A stretch of 64,000 bases of DNA from NCBI GenBank assembly GCA_017442365.1, contig JAFRZW010000001.1, positions 1-64,000 on the forward strand. The letters are read 5' to 3'. The translations under genes and the position numbers were made by a program. Source of the stretch: Rikenellaceae bacterium (GTDB lineage: Bacteria > Bacteroidota > Bacteroidia > Bacteroidales > Rikenellaceae). The notes beneath the pieces are model-generated. The model was not told the origin of the DNA. It searched no databases and saw nothing but the letters and a program-made list of their open reading frames with translations. Shown piece after piece: positions 28,573-35,517 of the stretch (position 1 is its first letter; each line of letters opens with the position of its first letter).

Positions 28573-28602
28573 CAAAGATAGTCTATTTTTTCTTACGTTC
28601 AA
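28573..28602 (-). promoter_or_regulatory. Promoter of the tracrRNA/array inside the nuclease gene end
   Basis: On the minus strand TTG (28602-28600), exactly 19 bases, TATCTTTG (28580-28573). The -33 part lies in the last codons of the nuclease gene (stop ends at 28583), the -7 part just after it. Confidence 0.75.
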
Positions 28603-30028
28603 CAATTTTGTCGCTCAATGCGATATTTCGTGCCGCATTCCAATCGGCATTGATACCCTCGAATGTGCCGTCCGAACGCTCTTTGCCCTTACCCTTCGTG
28701 CAATCGGGATTCTTGCAGATAAAGGTCGCCTGATTCACTCGCTGACCCTTCTCGTAGTGTCCGCAGAAACTGCACGTCTGGCTGGTGTGGTAGGGATCGA
28801 CGTAGCGCACCTCGATACCCGCCGCTTTTGCCTTATACTCGATCATCGTCTGCAACTCGAAGAACGACCAATAGCGCAAAATAAACTTGAAGCCCTCGTC
28901 CACCTCGTCGTTGCGGTCGTGTCCGAAACCTGTCAAGCGCTCCATTTGGATTGCGCCCGCCTCGTTACGCAACGCATACTCGATAATCGACTTGCTGAAT
29001 ATATGGTTTTGCAGGTGTACCCAATTACGCTCCTTGCCCTCCAAGCGGTCGAGTGCCTGCAACTTCTGCTTGCGCCCGTGTCCGCCATTGGTCGCCACGC
29101 GCAAATTGCGCTGCAACTCACGCTTTTGCGCCGCCATACGCATACGCACTTTGAGGAACTGATCGCGCGAGCCGATACTCAAACCGCCATACGTATTGTC
29201 GTTGAGAGCCGCATAGAGCGGAATATTGACACCCAAATCGACACCCACAACGCGGTCGGGATTGAGCGCACGGCTCTCTTTGGGAATCTTCACAACCAAC
29301 AACAAAAAGCGTTTGCCGTTTTTCGCCTCCTGAATCGACGAACCACCAACATCATACTGACCACTCAGCACTCGCTCGACAATCTCGCGGTTGTTGCTGC
29401 GGTCGCGACCGAAATTCAAATCCCACTCCAACCCCTTGGGAAAACTGAGATAGATTGATCCATCTTCGCGCTTTCTTAAAAGTAAGGCTCCATTCCTTTT
29501 TACTCGGACAGGCACGGGGATACCTTTCTTAAAATTAGATATTGTTCGCACACCTCGTTCAACATCACGCGCATATTCTTTATAGGTAGAAGCGATATTC
29601 TGATTCAAACAAGTAAGTACCTCCGACGGAATCACGTCCAAAAACTCGTGAGAAACGACTCTGTCTGTCGAGTTCTGCTCCGAGCCACCAAGAAAAGATT
29701 GACGCTGACGCTTGAACTCGGCAAACAACTCCTTGCGCTCGGCTTTGAGCGCCTTAATATCATCGTCGGTCAACTTGTTGCGCTTGGCATATTTCAGCAA
29801 CCTCTCAATCTCCTTGAATCTCGGAGAGTGCAACTTCAAACGATACTCATAAGCATCATTGAAGAAACAGTGCGAAATAATGCGATTCGCCGCCTTATAC
29901 AAATTGTCGTTGATCTCGTCCCAAATACGATACTCCTCTTTCAAACGCTGAGCCGCCTCCTCACTATCACCGTGGCGATGAAGATGAACCTCGATTTTGC
30001 GGGTTATGCAAGTATATTCTGTTGCCAT
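28583..30028 (-). CDS. Cas12f/TnpB-like RNA-guided RuvC nuclease
   Basis: 481 residues, within the Cas12f range and longer than a typical TnpB (~400). A helical, basic N-terminal half (about 1-250) precedes a split RuvC domain: RuvC-I RVVGVDLGVNIP (D264), RuvC-II AIQMERLTGFG (E363), a zinc ribbon with C419, C422, C438 and C443 (TCSFCGH ... FICKNPDC), and RuvC-III INADWNAARNIA (D462). All key residues are present, so it should be active. It lies directly upstream of a tracrRNA-like RNA and CRISPR array on the same strand, with no cas1, cas2, cas4 or TnpA beside it. Context favours a CRISPR effector (type V-F or V-U) over a transposon TnpB. Subtype is undetermined. Confidence 0.88.
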   Translation of the reverse strand: MATEYTCITRKIEVHLHRHGDSEEAAQRLKEEYRIWDEINDNLYKAANRIISHCFFNDAYEYRLKLHSPRFKEIERLLKYAKRNKLTDDDIKALKAERKELFAEFKRQRQSFLGGSEQNSTDRVVSHEFLDVIPSEVLTCLNQNIASTYKEYARDVERGVRTISNFKKGIPVPVRVKRNGALLLRKREDGSIYLSFPKGLEWDLNFGRDRSNNREIVERVLSGQYDVGGSSIQEAKNGKRFLLLVVKIPKESRALNPDRVVGVDLGVNIPLYAALNDNTYGGLSIGSRDQFLKVRMRMAAQKRELQRNLRVATNGGHGRKQKLQALDRLEGKERNWVHLQNHIFSKSIIEYALRNEAGAIQMERLTGFGHDRNDEVDEGFKFILRYWSFFELQTMIEYKAKAAGIEVRYVDPYHTSQTCSFCGHYEKGQRVNQATFICKNPDCTKGKGKERSDGTFEGINADWNAARNIALSDKIVERKKK

Positions 30029-30119: not shown

Positions 30120-31298
30120 ATGACAAACGTCCAACACGCTACTACCCCATCGGCCGTATTTGCCGACAGCAAACCCCACTACGCCCTGCTCGACGGCTTG
30201 CGAGGTGCGGCGGCACTGATGGTGGTCTGGTATCACTTTTTCGAGGGCTTTGCCTTTGCCGAGGGCTCGGCCATCACGACCTTCAACCACGGTCATTTGG
30301 GCGTCGATTTGTTCTTTATGCTCTCGGGTTTTGTGATCAGCTACGCCTACGACGATCGTTGGCAATCATCACGCAACCGACTGACACTCCGCGACTTCTT
30401 CAAACGCCGACTGATCCGTCTGCACCCTATGCTCATTATGGGTGCGGTGATCGGACTGATCACATTCTGGTTGCAAGGCGGAGTGCAGTGGGACGGCACA
30501 CAGACCTCGTTCGCGTGGTCAATGGTGGCATTGGTGGCGGCGATGTTGTTCGTGCCCGCCTACCCCGGTGCGCCGTACGACGTGCGTGGCAATGGCGAGA
30601 TGTTCTCGCTCAATGGACCGAGCTGGTCGCTCTTCTTCGAGTATCTCGGCAACCTGATCTATGCCCTCTTCGTTCGTCGCTTGGGTAATCGTGCGCTGGC
30701 GCTGCTGACAACGGTGTTGGGCGTGGCGTGGGTGTGGTTCGTGGCGACCGACGTTTCGGGCTACGATATGATCGGTATCGGCTGGACACTCGACACGGTC
30801 AATTTCTTCGGCGGTCTGCTACGAATGATGTTCCCATTTACGGTGGGTATGCTCTTGGCGCGCAACTTTAAGCCCGTGAAGATCAAAGGCATATTCTGGA
30901 TCGCGTGGGCGGTGCTGTTCGCGCTGTTCTCGGTGCCCGCATTTGCAAAATGTGGCGCAGTGAGCCTCAACGGAGTGTATGAACTCGCGTGCGTGGTGAT
31001 CGTCTTTCCCGCAATCGTGTGGTTAGCTGCCTCGGGCGAAACGACCGATAAGATCTCGTCGCGCGTATGTCAATTCTTGGGCGATATCTCCTACCCGTTG
31101 TATATCGTACATTACCCGGTGATGTACCTCTTCTACGCTTGGCTGATCGAGAATCAACTCTACTCGCTCAGTGCAACGTGGCCTGCGGTGATTATGGTCT
31201 TTGCGATCAACATCACGCTCGCCTACGCCTGCTTGAAGCTCTACGACGAGCCCGTACGTCGCTGGCTCACAAAGCGTTTCATCAAGACGACGAAGTAA
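30120..31298 (+). CDS. Acyltransferase 3 family membrane protein
   Basis: 392 residues from ATG 30120; earlier in-frame codons lie within the divergent promoter region. About ten transmembrane helices. Family marks: YALLDGLRGAAALMVVWYHFFEGF at the N-terminus with the conserved R-G and catalytic-type His, GHLGVDLFFMLSGFVISY, FFKRRLIRLHPM, and SYPLYIVHYPVMYLF. These proteins O-acylate exported glycans, lipids or peptidoglycan at the inner membrane. The target is unknown; the nearby glycosyltransferase-GNAT fusion suggests surface glycan decoration, though the CRISPR locus separates them. Divergent from the nuclease gene. Confidence 0.9.
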   Translation: MTNVQHATTPSAVFADSKPHYALLDGLRGAAALMVVWYHFFEGFAFAEGSAITTFNHGHLGVDLFFMLSGFVISYAYDDRWQSSRNRLTLRDFFKRRLIRLHPMLIMGAVIGLITFWLQGGVQWDGTQTSFAWSMVALVAAMLFVPAYPGAPYDVRGNGEMFSLNGPSWSLFFEYLGNLIYALFVRRLGNRALALLTTVLGVAWVWFVATDVSGYDMIGIGWTLDTVNFFGGLLRMMFPFTVGMLLARNFKPVKIKGIFWIAWAVLFALFSVPAFAKCGAVSLNGVYELACVVIVFPAIVWLAASGETTDKISSRVCQFLGDISYPLYIVHYPVMYLFYAWLIENQLYSLSATWPAVIMVFAINITLAYACLKLYDEPVRRWLTKRFIKTTK

Positions 31299-31370
31299 TC
31301 CACACAAGACAAACGACACAAAGAGATTATTTTTTTCGATCAACGTGATACAACGAAAGAAATTTTTTCA

Positions 31371-31378
31371 TATATTTG
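31371..31378 (+). promoter_or_regulatory. -7 element of the trpB leader
   Basis: TATATTTG, 24 bases before the leader peptide start; the -33 element is not clear. Confidence 0.5.
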
Positions 31379-31401
31379 CTCTCAACTAAGACGATTTTGA
31401 T

Positions 31402-31461
31402 ATGTCATTACACTTGTTGAATCTTAATTGGTGGCGCCTCATTGGACATAACGAACAATGA
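31402..31461 (+). CDS. trpL: Trp leader peptide of an attenuator
   Basis: ATG 31402 to TGA 31459-31461; product MSLHLLNLNWWRLIGHNEQ, 19 residues with two adjacent Trp codons (31429-31434) six codons before the antiterminator segment. Tandem Trp in a tiny ORF ahead of a tryptophan synthase gene and a terminator is the classic attenuation layout. It is too short for ordinary gene finding and would be missed. Confidence 0.85.
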   Translation: MSLHLLNLNWWRLIGHNEQ

Positions 31462-31550
31462 GTCGAGAAGGTGTATTCGCATAACGAACTTAGTTAATCA
31501 CAACAAAACACAAACAACCATTGTTCATCTCGGACAATGGTTGTTTTCAT
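31453..31550 (+). promoter_or_regulatory. Transcription attenuator of trpB
   Basis: Terminator: AAACAACCATTGT (31512-31524) pairs perfectly with ACAATGGTTGTTT (31534-31546), nine-base loop, then TTTTCATTTTT. Antiterminator: GAACAATG (31453-31460, at the leader stop codon) can pair with CATTGTTC (31519-31526), which covers part of the terminator's 5' arm. A ribosome stalled at the Trp codons leaves 31453-31460 free, favouring antitermination; one that reaches the stop covers it, favouring termination. Confidence 0.8.
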
Positions 31551-31593
31551 TTTTGACCGAACAACGAAGAATAACCAAACAACACACAACAAT

Positions 31594-32955
31594 ATGAAAA
31601 CCAAGAAATTTATGCTCTCCGAGCAACAGATGCCAACCAAATGGTATAACATCGTGGCCGATATGCCCAACAAACCTCTGCCGGCACTCGATCCCGCCAC
31701 CAAACAACCTGTTACCTTCGAGTCGCTCTCGCGTGTATTCGGCGAGGAGTTGGTCAAGCAGGAGCTCTCCGAGGAGCGATTCATCGAGATCCCCGACGAG
31801 GTACAGGATCTCTACAAGATATGGCGTCCTACCCCATTGGTGCGCGCCTACGGATTGGAGCGTATGCTCGACACCCCCGCCAAGATCTACTTCAAGAACG
31901 AAAGCACCTCCCCCGCAGGCTCACATAAACCCAATACGGCCATACCGCAGGCCTACTACAACGCCAAGCAGGGTATCAAATATCTGGCAACCGAGACCGG
32001 TGGCGGACAATGGGGCAGCGCGATGGCTCTGGCCTGCCAATACTTCAATATCGACCTGCGCGTCTATATGGTCAAGGTGAGCTGCGAGCAGAAACCCTAT
32101 CGCAAACTGCTGATGAATGCTTGGGGTGCAAACGTCATACCTTCACCCAGCACCACAACCCGCTTTGGACGCGACGTGCTTGCCAAAGACCCCGATTGTG
32201 CAGGCAATCTGGGCATTGCAATCTCGGAGGCCGTCGAGGTGGCATTGGAGCACGGTGAGCATACGCGCTATTGCTTGGGTAGCGTGATGAACCACGTACT
32301 GCTCCACCAGACGATCATCGGTGAGGAGGCTCTGCTCCAAATGGAGATGGCGGGCGACGAACCCGACGTTGTGATTGGCTGCTTCGGTGGCGGTTCGAAT
32401 TTTGCGGGTATCGGCTTTCCGTTCCTTCGCCGCAACTTGACCGAAGGCAAACAGACCCGCATTGTGGCTGTCGAGCCCACGTCGTGCCCCAAACTGACAC
32501 GCGGCGAGTTCCAATATGACTTCGGCGATACGGCAGGTATGACCCCGATGATGCCGATGTACACGCTCGGGCACTCGTTCCAGCCATCGAACATTCACGC
32601 GGGAGGTCTGCGCTACCACGGTGCAGGCAGCATCGTGAGCCAGCTCTACAAGGATCGCCTGATCGAAGCTCAATCGGTTCCTCAACTCGAAACGTTTGCC
32701 GCCGGTATGATGTTCGCCAACAGCGAGGGCATAATTCCCGCACCGGAGTCGTGCCACGCCATTGCTGTCGCCATTCGTGAGGCCAAGCGCGCCAAGGAGG
32801 AGGGTTGCCCGCGCACGATTCTGTTCAACCTGTCGGGCAACGGAATGATCGACCTCTACGCCTTTGAGCAATACTTCGCCAACAAACTGACCGATTACGA
32901 CCTGCCTGAGAGCGAGATACGCCGCTCGATCGACGAGTTGGAACAAATAATTTAG
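31594..32955 (+). CDS. trpB: TrpB2-type tryptophan synthase beta chain
   Basis: 453 residues from ATG 31594; the frame runs through the attenuator upstream, so the later Met is the start. PLP Lys112 lies in SPAGSHKPNTA; the phosphate loop is GCFGGGSNFAG. The long N-terminus (FMLSEQQMPTKWYNIVADMP) and RPTPLVRAYGLE are typical of the TrpB2 group, longer than the ~400-residue TrpB1 that pairs with TrpA. TrpB2 enzymes make Trp from indole and Ser, often as indole salvage. No trpA or other trp gene is adjacent. The Trp attenuator in front shows it is controlled by tryptophan supply. Confidence 0.93.
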   Translation: MKTKKFMLSEQQMPTKWYNIVADMPNKPLPALDPATKQPVTFESLSRVFGEELVKQELSEERFIEIPDEVQDLYKIWRPTPLVRAYGLERMLDTPAKIYFKNESTSPAGSHKPNTAIPQAYYNAKQGIKYLATETGGGQWGSAMALACQYFNIDLRVYMVKVSCEQKPYRKLLMNAWGANVIPSPSTTTRFGRDVLAKDPDCAGNLGIAISEAVEVALEHGEHTRYCLGSVMNHVLLHQTIIGEEALLQMEMAGDEPDVVIGCFGGGSNFAGIGFPFLRRNLTEGKQTRIVAVEPTSCPKLTRGEFQYDFGDTAGMTPMMPMYTLGHSFQPSNIHAGGLRYHGAGSIVSQLYKDRLIEAQSVPQLETFAAGMMFANSEGIIPAPESCHAIAVAIREAKRAKEEGCPRTILFNLSGNGMIDLYAFEQYFANKLTDYDLPESEIRRSIDELEQII

Positions 32956-33385: not shown

Positions 33386-34396
33386 ATGGCAAATAAGAAT
33401 CTCAATAAAGCCAAAGAGGCAAAAAAAGATGAATTTTACACCCAACTCGAAGATATCAACAACGAGTTGCGCCACTACCGCGAGCATTTTCGAGGCAAGA
33501 CCGTATTATGCAACTGCGACGATCCTCGCGTAAGTAATTTTTTTACCTATTTCGCTTACAATTTCGAGTTTCTTGGGTTGAAGAAACTAATCACCACCTG
33601 CTATAAAAACCAAGATACTGATTTATTTAGCACACAACAAAGCAAGGAGGCTGTCTATTTGATCTATGAGGGGGACAAAAATGGCGACCATATTCCCAAT
33701 GTCGAAGAGATTGGCGTTCACCCATTGAAAGGCGACGGTGATTTTCGCAGTGCCGAGTGTATCGAATTGCTTAAAGAGGCTGATATTGTGGTTACAAACC
33801 CACCCTTTTCGCTTTTCCGCGAATATATCGCACAGTTGATTGAATATGACAAGAAATTCATAATTGTAGGAAATGTCAATGCTGTAAAATACAAAGAGGT
33901 TTTCCCTCTAATAATGCAAAATAAAGTTTGGCTGGGAGCGAGTATTCATAGTGGAGATAGAAAATTTTGGGTTCCTGATGAATACGAATTAAATGCTGCG
34001 GGTTGCGGAATTGACGAAACAGGAAGAAAGTATATTCGCGTTAAGGGCGTTCGTTGGTTTACAAACTTAGACTATTCAACGCGCCACGAAAACTTAATTT
34101 TATACAAATCGTACACACCTCACGAATATCCTAAATATGAGAACTACGATGCGATAGAGGTCGCTAAAACATCGGAGATTCCATTTGACTATGATGGACT
34201 TATGGGTGTACCTATTACGTTCCTTGATAAATACAACCCAGATCAATTTGAGATTATTGGGGTTAGCTTAGTTTTAGGCAACCAAAAACCCAAAGACCTG
34301 CCAAAAAGCAAACAAGGTGGTCCGGCTTTCTACTTAAAGGAAAACGGCGAGTATAGACGACTATTTGATAGAATTGTTATCCGCAAACGACAATAA
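33386..34396 (+). CDS. EcoRI-type adenine-specific DNA methyltransferase
   Basis: 336 residues, the length of M.EcoRI. AKKDEFYTQLEDINNELRHY at the N-terminus and CNCDDPRVSNFFTYF (SAM-binding region) match the EcoRI methylase group. The catalytic motif is NPPF (138-141, in VVTNPPFSLFREYI). Later WFTNLDYSTRHENLILYKSY and GLMGVPITFLDKYNPDQFEIIG are typical. It would methylate N6 of adenine in a specific site; the site cannot be read from sequence. Less biased, AT-richer codons than its neighbours suggest acquisition. Its stop is 2 bases before the next gene, so both are translated together. Confidence 0.92.
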   Translation: MANKNLNKAKEAKKDEFYTQLEDINNELRHYREHFRGKTVLCNCDDPRVSNFFTYFAYNFEFLGLKKLITTCYKNQDTDLFSTQQSKEAVYLIYEGDKNGDHIPNVEEIGVHPLKGDGDFRSAECIELLKEADIVVTNPPFSLFREYIAQLIEYDKKFIIVGNVNAVKYKEVFPLIMQNKVWLGASIHSGDRKFWVPDEYELNAAGCGIDETGRKYIRVKGVRWFTNLDYSTRHENLILYKSYTPHEYPKYENYDAIEVAKTSEIPFDYDGLMGVPITFLDKYNPDQFEIIGVSLVLGNQKPKDLPKSKQGGPAFYLKENGEYRRLFDRIVIRKRQ

Positions 34397-34398
34397 AT

Positions 34399-35517
34399 AT
34401 GAATATTGAGCTTAAATCTATTCCGATCCGAGATTTGATCGATGGGTATAGCAACAATCCCGATAGTGGCGTACGTGCCTACGGTGGCAAACTCGACGTG
34501 CGTCCACCGTATCAGCGTGAGTTCCGCTACGATGAGAAACAAAAACAAGCTGTCATTGAGACTATTATGAAAGGGTTTCCGCTCAATATTATGTATTGGT
34601 CGGAAGATGGAAACGGCAACTTCGAAATGATCGACGGTCAGCAACGTACTCTGTCGATCTGCGAGTTCTATACGCACGACTTTAATATCGTGGATAAAGA
34701 CAGAGGTGTAATGTTCTTTAACACGCTGACCGACGACGAAAAAAAAGCATTCCTCGACTACGAACTGACCGTATATTTTTGTAGCGGAACAGATAAAGAA
34801 AAGTTAGATTGGTTTCGAGTGATAAACATCGCAGGCGAGAAATTGCTCGAACAAGAGTTGCGAAACGCTGTATATGTTGGTCCTTTCGTATCGGACGCTC
34901 GTCGCCATTTCTCAAAAAACGCCTGCCCCGCATATCGTTTAGGTAACAAGTATATGAATGGTAACACCGTCGAACAAGCATACCTCGAAACAATCTTGAA
35001 ATGGGCAGCGCGCCACGACAATATCCGCGATGAAAAGCCGATTGACAAATATATGGCGATTCATCAGTTCGACCCTAACGCCAATAAACTTTGGGCTTAC
35101 TATACTCAAATTATCACTTGGATAGAATCAACATTCCCACATTATCGCAAAGAAATGAAGGGTTTGGATTGGGGCGCAATGTTTGACGAATTTAGCGAAA
35201 ATATATACGACACAAACGAACTCGAACAGCAGATTCACGACCTAATGGAAGATGATGAAATTATGAAAAAATCAGGAATCTACCGTTATGTCCTGAGTGG
35301 CGACCTGCGTGATTTATCGTTCCGCGCATTTGACAAAAAGCAAAAACGCGAAGCCTACGAACGCCAAAAAGGGGTCTGCGTGCACTGCGGAAAGCATTTT
35401 GAACTCGAAGAAATGGAGGCAGATCACATAACGCCGTGGAAAGAGGGTGGCACAACCATAGCCGAAAATTGCCAAATGCTATGCAGAAATTGTAACAGAG
35501 TTAAGGGCGGGAAATAA
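34399..35517 (+). CDS. DUF262-HNH nuclease paired with the methylase
   Basis: 372 residues. The N-terminal DUF262 domain (about 20-230) has PYQREFRYDEKQKQAVIETI and the MIDGQQRTLSI motif, a ParB/Srx-like nucleotide site. The C-terminal HNH domain (about 315-372) has CVHCGKHF, EADHITPW (catalytic DH) and CQMLCRNCNRVKGG, a complete zinc-stabilised HNH. DUF262 plus a nuclease occurs in GmrSD-type modification-dependent enzymes and phosphorothioate-sensing SspE. Here the partner is an EcoRI-like adenine methylase coupled two bases upstream. It therefore acts either as the restriction half of an R-M pair or as a linked defence nuclease. The mechanism is inference. Confidence 0.85.
   Translation: MNIELKSIPIRDLIDGYSNNPDSGVRAYGGKLDVRPPYQREFRYDEKQKQAVIETIMKGFPLNIMYWSEDGNGNFEMIDGQQRTLSICEFYTHDFNIVDKDRGVMFFNTLTDDEKKAFLDYELTVYFCSGTDKEKLDWFRVINIAGEKLLEQELRNAVYVGPFVSDARRHFSKNACPAYRLGNKYMNGNTVEQAYLETILKWAARHDNIRDEKPIDKYMAIHQFDPNANKLWAYYTQIITWIESTFPHYRKEMKGLDWGAMFDEFSENIYDTNELEQQIHDLMEDDEIMKKSGIYRYVLSGDLRDLSFRAFDKKQKREAYERQKGVCVHCGKHFELEEMEADHITPWKEGGTTIAENCQMLCRNCNRVKGGK

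Follow-up and report, generated by a model that had tools for sequence, protein, structure and literature searches.

A putative ribosome-mediated tryptophan attenuator upstream of a lone trpB2 gene in Bacteroidales

Described tryptophan leaders and the trpB2 locus

Tryptophan leaders are known in Bacteroidota from the Bacteroid-trp RNA, Rfam family RF01692, which is annotated as 'Bacteroidete tryptophan peptide leader RNA' (Weinberg et al. 2010, PMC2864571). Here we analysed a window of 64,000 nucleotides (positions 1 to 64,000 of the forward strand of contig JAFRZW010000001.1 from a Rikenellaceae bacterium), in which a short leader ORF with adjacent Trp codons lies before a trpB2 gene. Both systems have a Trp-codon leader ORF (e.g. 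MSKQLVNTFWWWCLQLKQVVRS, MNFLLTNTFWWWHSQLKKS) before a trp gene in Bacteroidales, and the two sets of leader peptides are similar (NxxWWW or alike). They differ in their target: RF01692 sites precede canonical trpB, whereas the window element precedes a lone trpB2. Among 101 relatives RF01692 was present in four, each time upstream of canonical trpB. Its model gave no match between 31300 and 31620 of the window up to an E-value of 10 (curated threshold 49 bits), and the further trpB2 leaders that were scanned did not match it either.

For the reverse comparison we used a covariance model built from trpB2 leaders (R1). It matched three of the four RF01692 sites (G062, G079, G090) with 30-40 bits, the canonical-trpB leaders of genomes G054 and G088, and sites immediately upstream of trpE in G066 and G082. 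Further matches were WWWP leaders (L122-L148) that precede an apparent trpE in numerous genomes from a single family, which belongs to the same phylum but lies outside the class of the window. The trpE leaders of family f64 from other Bacteroidota, found by R1, share the WWW codons in short leaders (e.g. MKNENAHKNSWWWPFAIYSSGHRM) but precede an apparent trpE, named from the sequence by eye, of a biosynthetic pathway. Since R1 finds RF01692 sites as well as WWW leaders before trpE, the elements look related, and by sequence comparison the trpB2 leader appears to be a relative of RF01692 beyond the reach of that model. As R1 includes the Trp codons, its similarity to RF01692 could be partly convergent. 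The trpB2 leaders represent a large conserved sister group missed by the Rfam model for Bacteroidetes, which the covariance model and the leader motif allow to annotate.

With the enterobacterial trpL leader (RF00513, Trp_leader) the locus shares adjacent Trp codons, the 1:2, 2:3 and 3:4 pairings and a terminator with a T run. It differs in that it would regulate a single gene instead of a biosynthetic operon and in that, in the window, the stop codon of the leader is located within region 2. Matches to RF00513 were weak (17.9 bits with E 0.35 for the window, 25.9 and 22.7 bits for L016 and L015) and stayed below the gathering score of 41 bits. In Corynebacterium diphtheriae a candidate attenuator was described before an operon named trpB2A (PMC1262725), a likeness by gene name; that case is from Actinobacteria and concerns an operon with trpA instead of a lone gene. 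An Rfam scan of the whole window at gathering scores returned only a tRNA. Weak matches to RefA9, rliE and mir-3051 were discarded since they reflect mostly the hairpin, and minus-strand matches of R1 at the leader site were dismissed as due to the palindromic terminator.

A search of mostly openly accessible literature on attenuation combined with TrpB2, Bacteroidetes or Bacteroidota returned no trpB2 leader described in the phylum; a prior report is possible. Vitreschak et al. 2004 reportedly mention candidate attenuators in Bacteroidetes. The original prediction, made from the letters of the window, had placed the attenuator in Bacteroidota and regarded it as notable for its target, a lone TrpB2. 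The phylum itself is not the surprise, because tryptophan leaders were already known there from RF01692, and the type of switch is classical. What apparently has not been described is trpB2 as the target and the wide conservation.

Anatomy and conservation of the trpB2 leader

The elements of the locus are collected in Table 1. The 19-residue leader peptide with adjacent Trp codons had been predicted, as had the 8-bp antiterminator pairing at exactly these coordinates. The predicted perfect 13-bp terminator stem corresponds to 13 uninterrupted Watson-Crick pairs within a stem of 15 pairs (31512-31526 with 31532-31546) that contains one G-U pair. The hairpin has a folding energy of -19 kcal/mol (z -7.0), with no shuffled sequence folding equally well, and 47 nt separate its stem from the trpB2 start codon. 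The perfect 1:2 pairing, which acts as the protector in our scheme, is an addition to the original prediction.

Table 1. Features of the trpB2 leader locus (positions within the window)
Feature	Position	Strand	Sequence or description	Evidence
Bacteroidota-type -7 promoter box	31371-31378	+	TATATTTG	TAnnTTTG conserved before trpB2 leader ORFs
Leader ORF	31402-31461	+	19 codons, MSLHLLNLNWWRLIGHNEQ-stop; ATG at 31402, TGA at 31459-31461	read from sequence; WW leader ORFs in 76/93 trpB2 upstream regions
Adjacent Trp codons (putative control codons)	31429-31434	+	TGG TGG, codons 10-11	invariant in 33-sequence alignment A1
Region 1	31438-31444	+	CTCATTG, pairs with CAATGAG at 31456-31462 (1:2 protector)	-7 kcal/mol, z -6.7
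Region 2	31453-31460	+	GAACAATG, pairs with region 3 (antiterminator)	8/8 Watson-Crick pairs
Region 3	31519-31526	+	CATTGTTC, common to antiterminator and terminator	complementarity, conservation, covariation
Terminator hairpin (3:4)	31512-31546	+	15 pairs, loop ATCTC	intrinsic terminator score, folding energy, covariation
T-rich terminator tail	31547-31554	+	TCATTTTT	sequence, intrinsic terminator scan
trpB2	31594-32955	+	standalone TrpB-like PLP enzyme, 453 aa	NCBIfam profiles

We collected TrpB2 homologues from relatives and named genomes, comprising Alistipes, other Rikenellaceae, Butyricimonas, Odoribacter, Sanguibacteroides, Paludibacter-like and other Bacteroidales. This provided 93 distinct upstream regions after de-duplication. 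The nearest relatives of the window were Alistipes (Rikenellaceae) MAGs, mostly from ruminant gut. An ORF of 8-40 codons that starts with ATG and contains WW was counted as a leader, and at least 7 Watson-Crick pairs were demanded for the antiterminator. A leader was found in 76 of the upstream regions, a leader with terminator in 72 and the full set including the antiterminator in 57. Dinucleotide shuffles of the same regions (n=5580) yielded 41, 14 and 2 cases, respectively, such that the combination is not a product of chance. When leader and terminator were kept and only the spacer was shuffled, 348 of 4320 sequences reached the criterion for the 2:3 helix compared to 57 of 72 real loci. 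The geometry was conserved as well: WW started at codon 8-11 in nearly all trpB2 leaders, and region 2 began 11-21 nt past the WW codons in the 57 full loci. In some other species the leader ORF runs through region 2. The promoter motif TAnnTTTG was located at most 60 nt upstream of the leader ORF in 58 of 72 loci, where about 0.02 are expected per such stretch; its distance to the ATG was mostly 17-26 nt across trpB2 leaders and 23 nt in the window. The WW codons and stems that the original prediction had suggested to look for in related genomes are thus present, and the leader ORF, whose lack of conservation it had named as speaking against an attenuator, turned out to be conserved.

No adjacent-Trp leader was found by the ORF scan in 17 of the 93 upstream regions, and no simple 7-pair 2:3 helix in 15 of the 72 loci with leader and terminator, mainly Paludibacteraceae-like ones. 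Bulged pairing or another arrangement may apply to these loci. In one trpB2 upstream region (L085) a leader-like ORF has only one Trp (...FSKYWRRRKSA...) and a terminator-like hairpin has been retained; this is possibly a decayed leader.

Both competing helices are supported by covariation in alignment A1 (33 sequences). In the terminator helix 97.9% of the cells were paired and 7 of 12 pairs changed on both sides, while for the antiterminator helix 89.5% were paired and 5 of 12 pairs changed on both sides. Slid registers of the helices reached 31-61% paired cells. The covariation scores of both helices exceeded all 500 shuffles, counts that are not probabilities because the aligned sequences are related, and they also exceeded all slid registers. 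Part of the covariation is common to the two helices, since region 3 belongs to both.

These data bear on two simpler explanations. An acyltransferase gene on the same strand ends upstream at 31298, and the hairpin, which scores as an intrinsic terminator, might merely be its constitutive terminator with the leader ORF being incidental. This is very improbable given the conserved promoter box between the acyltransferase gene and the leader, the conservation of the WW codons and of the covarying 2:3 helix, and the invariance of TGGTGG, which is not expected of an incidental ORF. The structured 5' leader before an amino-acid gene would equally fit a riboswitch or T-box that senses tryptophan or tRNA without leader translation, the ORF being secondary. 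Conservation is however focused on the in-frame Trp codons and the competing arms, and T-box and riboswitch families, including the T-box Rfam model, gave no match at gathering score in the window and none in 31300-31620 up to an E-value of 10, such that we regard this explanation as highly unlikely, too. The locus instead has the constituents of a tryptophan attenuator: a short ORF that lies between the promoter and the gene and contains neighbouring Trp codons, and a mutually exclusive antiterminator and intrinsic terminator with a shared arm.

Modelled switching and proposed mechanism

We calculated base-pair probabilities for nascent RNA ending at the terminator loop for 57 loci. The ribosome footprint was assumed to extend 11 nt past the A-site codon. 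With a ribosome on the first Trp codon, the modelled probability P(2:3) had a median of 0.99 and was above 0.5 in 57 of 57 loci. In ribosome-free nascent RNA the median P(2:3) was only 0.02, because the 1:2 and outer pairings win. For a ribosome at the stop codon the model provided a median P(3:4) of 0.96. The window behaved alike, with P(2:3) of 0.99 in the stalled and 0.14 in the ribosome-free state and P(3:4) of 0.97 once the ribosome was placed on the stop codon. Twelve of the 57 loci kept a preference for 2:3 even without a ribosome; the protector is thus not universal. In the model a stalled ribosome hence leaves region 2 free for pairing and a terminating one masks it. In addition to the 1:2 pairing, leader codons such as CATAAC (A1 columns ~20-30) are able to pair with TGTGT/TTATG downstream of region 2 (columns ~85-97), and this outer helix lengthens 1:2 in many predicted folds.

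It is very probable that trpB2 is governed by a ribosome-mediated transcription attenuator by which Trp starvation induces the conversion of indole to Trp. RNA polymerase would start just past the -7 box and a ribosome would translate the leader. Under a shortage of charged tRNA-Trp, the ribosome would stall on the two Trp codons and cover region 1. Regions 2 and 3 could then pair before region 4 is synthesized, such that the terminator is blocked and trpB2 transcribed. With ample Trp, the ribosome would reach the stop codon inside region 2 and hide this region, and the 3:4 terminator would form. Without translation of the leader, 1:2 would form and termination would likewise follow. The TrpB2 produced would form Trp by condensing indole with serine or one of its derivatives. 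Ribosome-stalling attenuation of a lone TrpB2, as originally proposed, agrees with the conservation of WW or WWW, their position, the antiterminator, the terminator and the promoter, with the modelled switch and with the gene content described below. From these we infer stalling, termination and Trp dependence in vivo, as well as the substrates of the enzyme, in the window organism.

TrpB2 and its genomic context

The gene product scored 704 bits against NF009057 (cutoff 366) and 611 bits against TIGR01415 (cutoff 518.9), above both curated cutoffs and better than the only 139 bits obtained against canonical trpB (TIGR00263, cutoff 392). The nearest solved chains were 6hul_B, 4qys_B and 6hte_B. 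In line with the predicted lone target, no trpA, trpC, trpE or second (canonical) trpB was found in the window genome; being a 96% complete draft, it does not prove their absence absolutely. The lone TrpB2 is the only route to Trp visible in this genome, which also contains a tryptophanase (G000:C11:8862-10229). Without trpA, trpC and trpE, indole must be external or come from the organism's own tryptophanase. For this genome with a lone trpB2 and a tryptophanase, the best reading is that Trp starvation induces indole-to-Trp conversion, so that the window organism would salvage indole under this regulation.

The substrate preferences of TrpB2 vary between subgroups. Together with the divergence of the window protein from TrpB1, seen in its low TIGR00263 score, this would favour a role different from salvage, in which the leader attenuates as proposed but TrpB2 serves, for instance, a different pathway with another acceptor resembling indole or another serine donor. 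We consider this unlikely, although less so than the two explanations above, since the Trp codons of the leader link trpB2 to the Trp supply and since TrpB2 of Bacteroides thetaiotaomicron (BT_RS23500) behaves in E. coli like an enzyme that converts indole to Trp: it provided a growth benefit to a trpA mutant when indole-secreting wild type was present, and the authors of that study interpreted this as indole-to-Trp conversion (PMC11535334).

Within the genus of the window, trpE was not found in any of the 36 genomes searched, and only one of them, A. montrealensis (G054), has trpA and trpC; its canonical trpB and its trpB2 are each preceded by a WWW leader. The trpB2 leader is also present in Alistipes sp. 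An66. At the TrpB2 level, over half of the genomes of this genus gave no match. Trp-rich leaders (e.g. WRWRW, WCW) on trpB2 also occur in species that possess the full pathway, such that trpB2 leaders are not limited to auxotrophs. Under the attenuation mechanism the locus offers a testable control point for the use of indole in gut Bacteroidota, where apparent Trp auxotrophs would induce an indole-to-Trp enzyme when starved for Trp. A more far-reaching idea, to which we give slightly less than an even chance, is that of a Bacteroidales-wide attenuator family that shares its ancestor with the trp-operon leader and was kept on standalone trpB2 after loss of the pathway. Trp-auxotrophic gut Alistipes with tryptophanase might then switch between making and reclaiming indole according to tRNA-Trp charging.

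Some further elements were noted in the surroundings of these genes. About 250 nt upstream of the tryptophanase gene of the window genome, a 23-residue ORF with Trp as its last residue (MKFYAKLFCKIVSLLFVFFVRNW; L165, 738-809) may be a regulatory leader or occur by chance. Adjoining trpB2 on the plus strand of the window (33386-35517), a gene for an EcoRI-type adenine methyltransferase (PF13651, 493 bits) is followed by one for a GmrSD_N/HNH protein (PF03235 and PF01844), a pair that looks like a restriction-modification or defence system. A gene for a TnpB-family RNA-guided nuclease (NF040570, 160 bits) is located on the minus strand at 28583-30028. In another Alistipes (L009, 3199-3322) a match to His_leader downstream of trpB2, which at 36.1 bits stays below the gathering score of 49 bits, is possibly a histidine attenuator.
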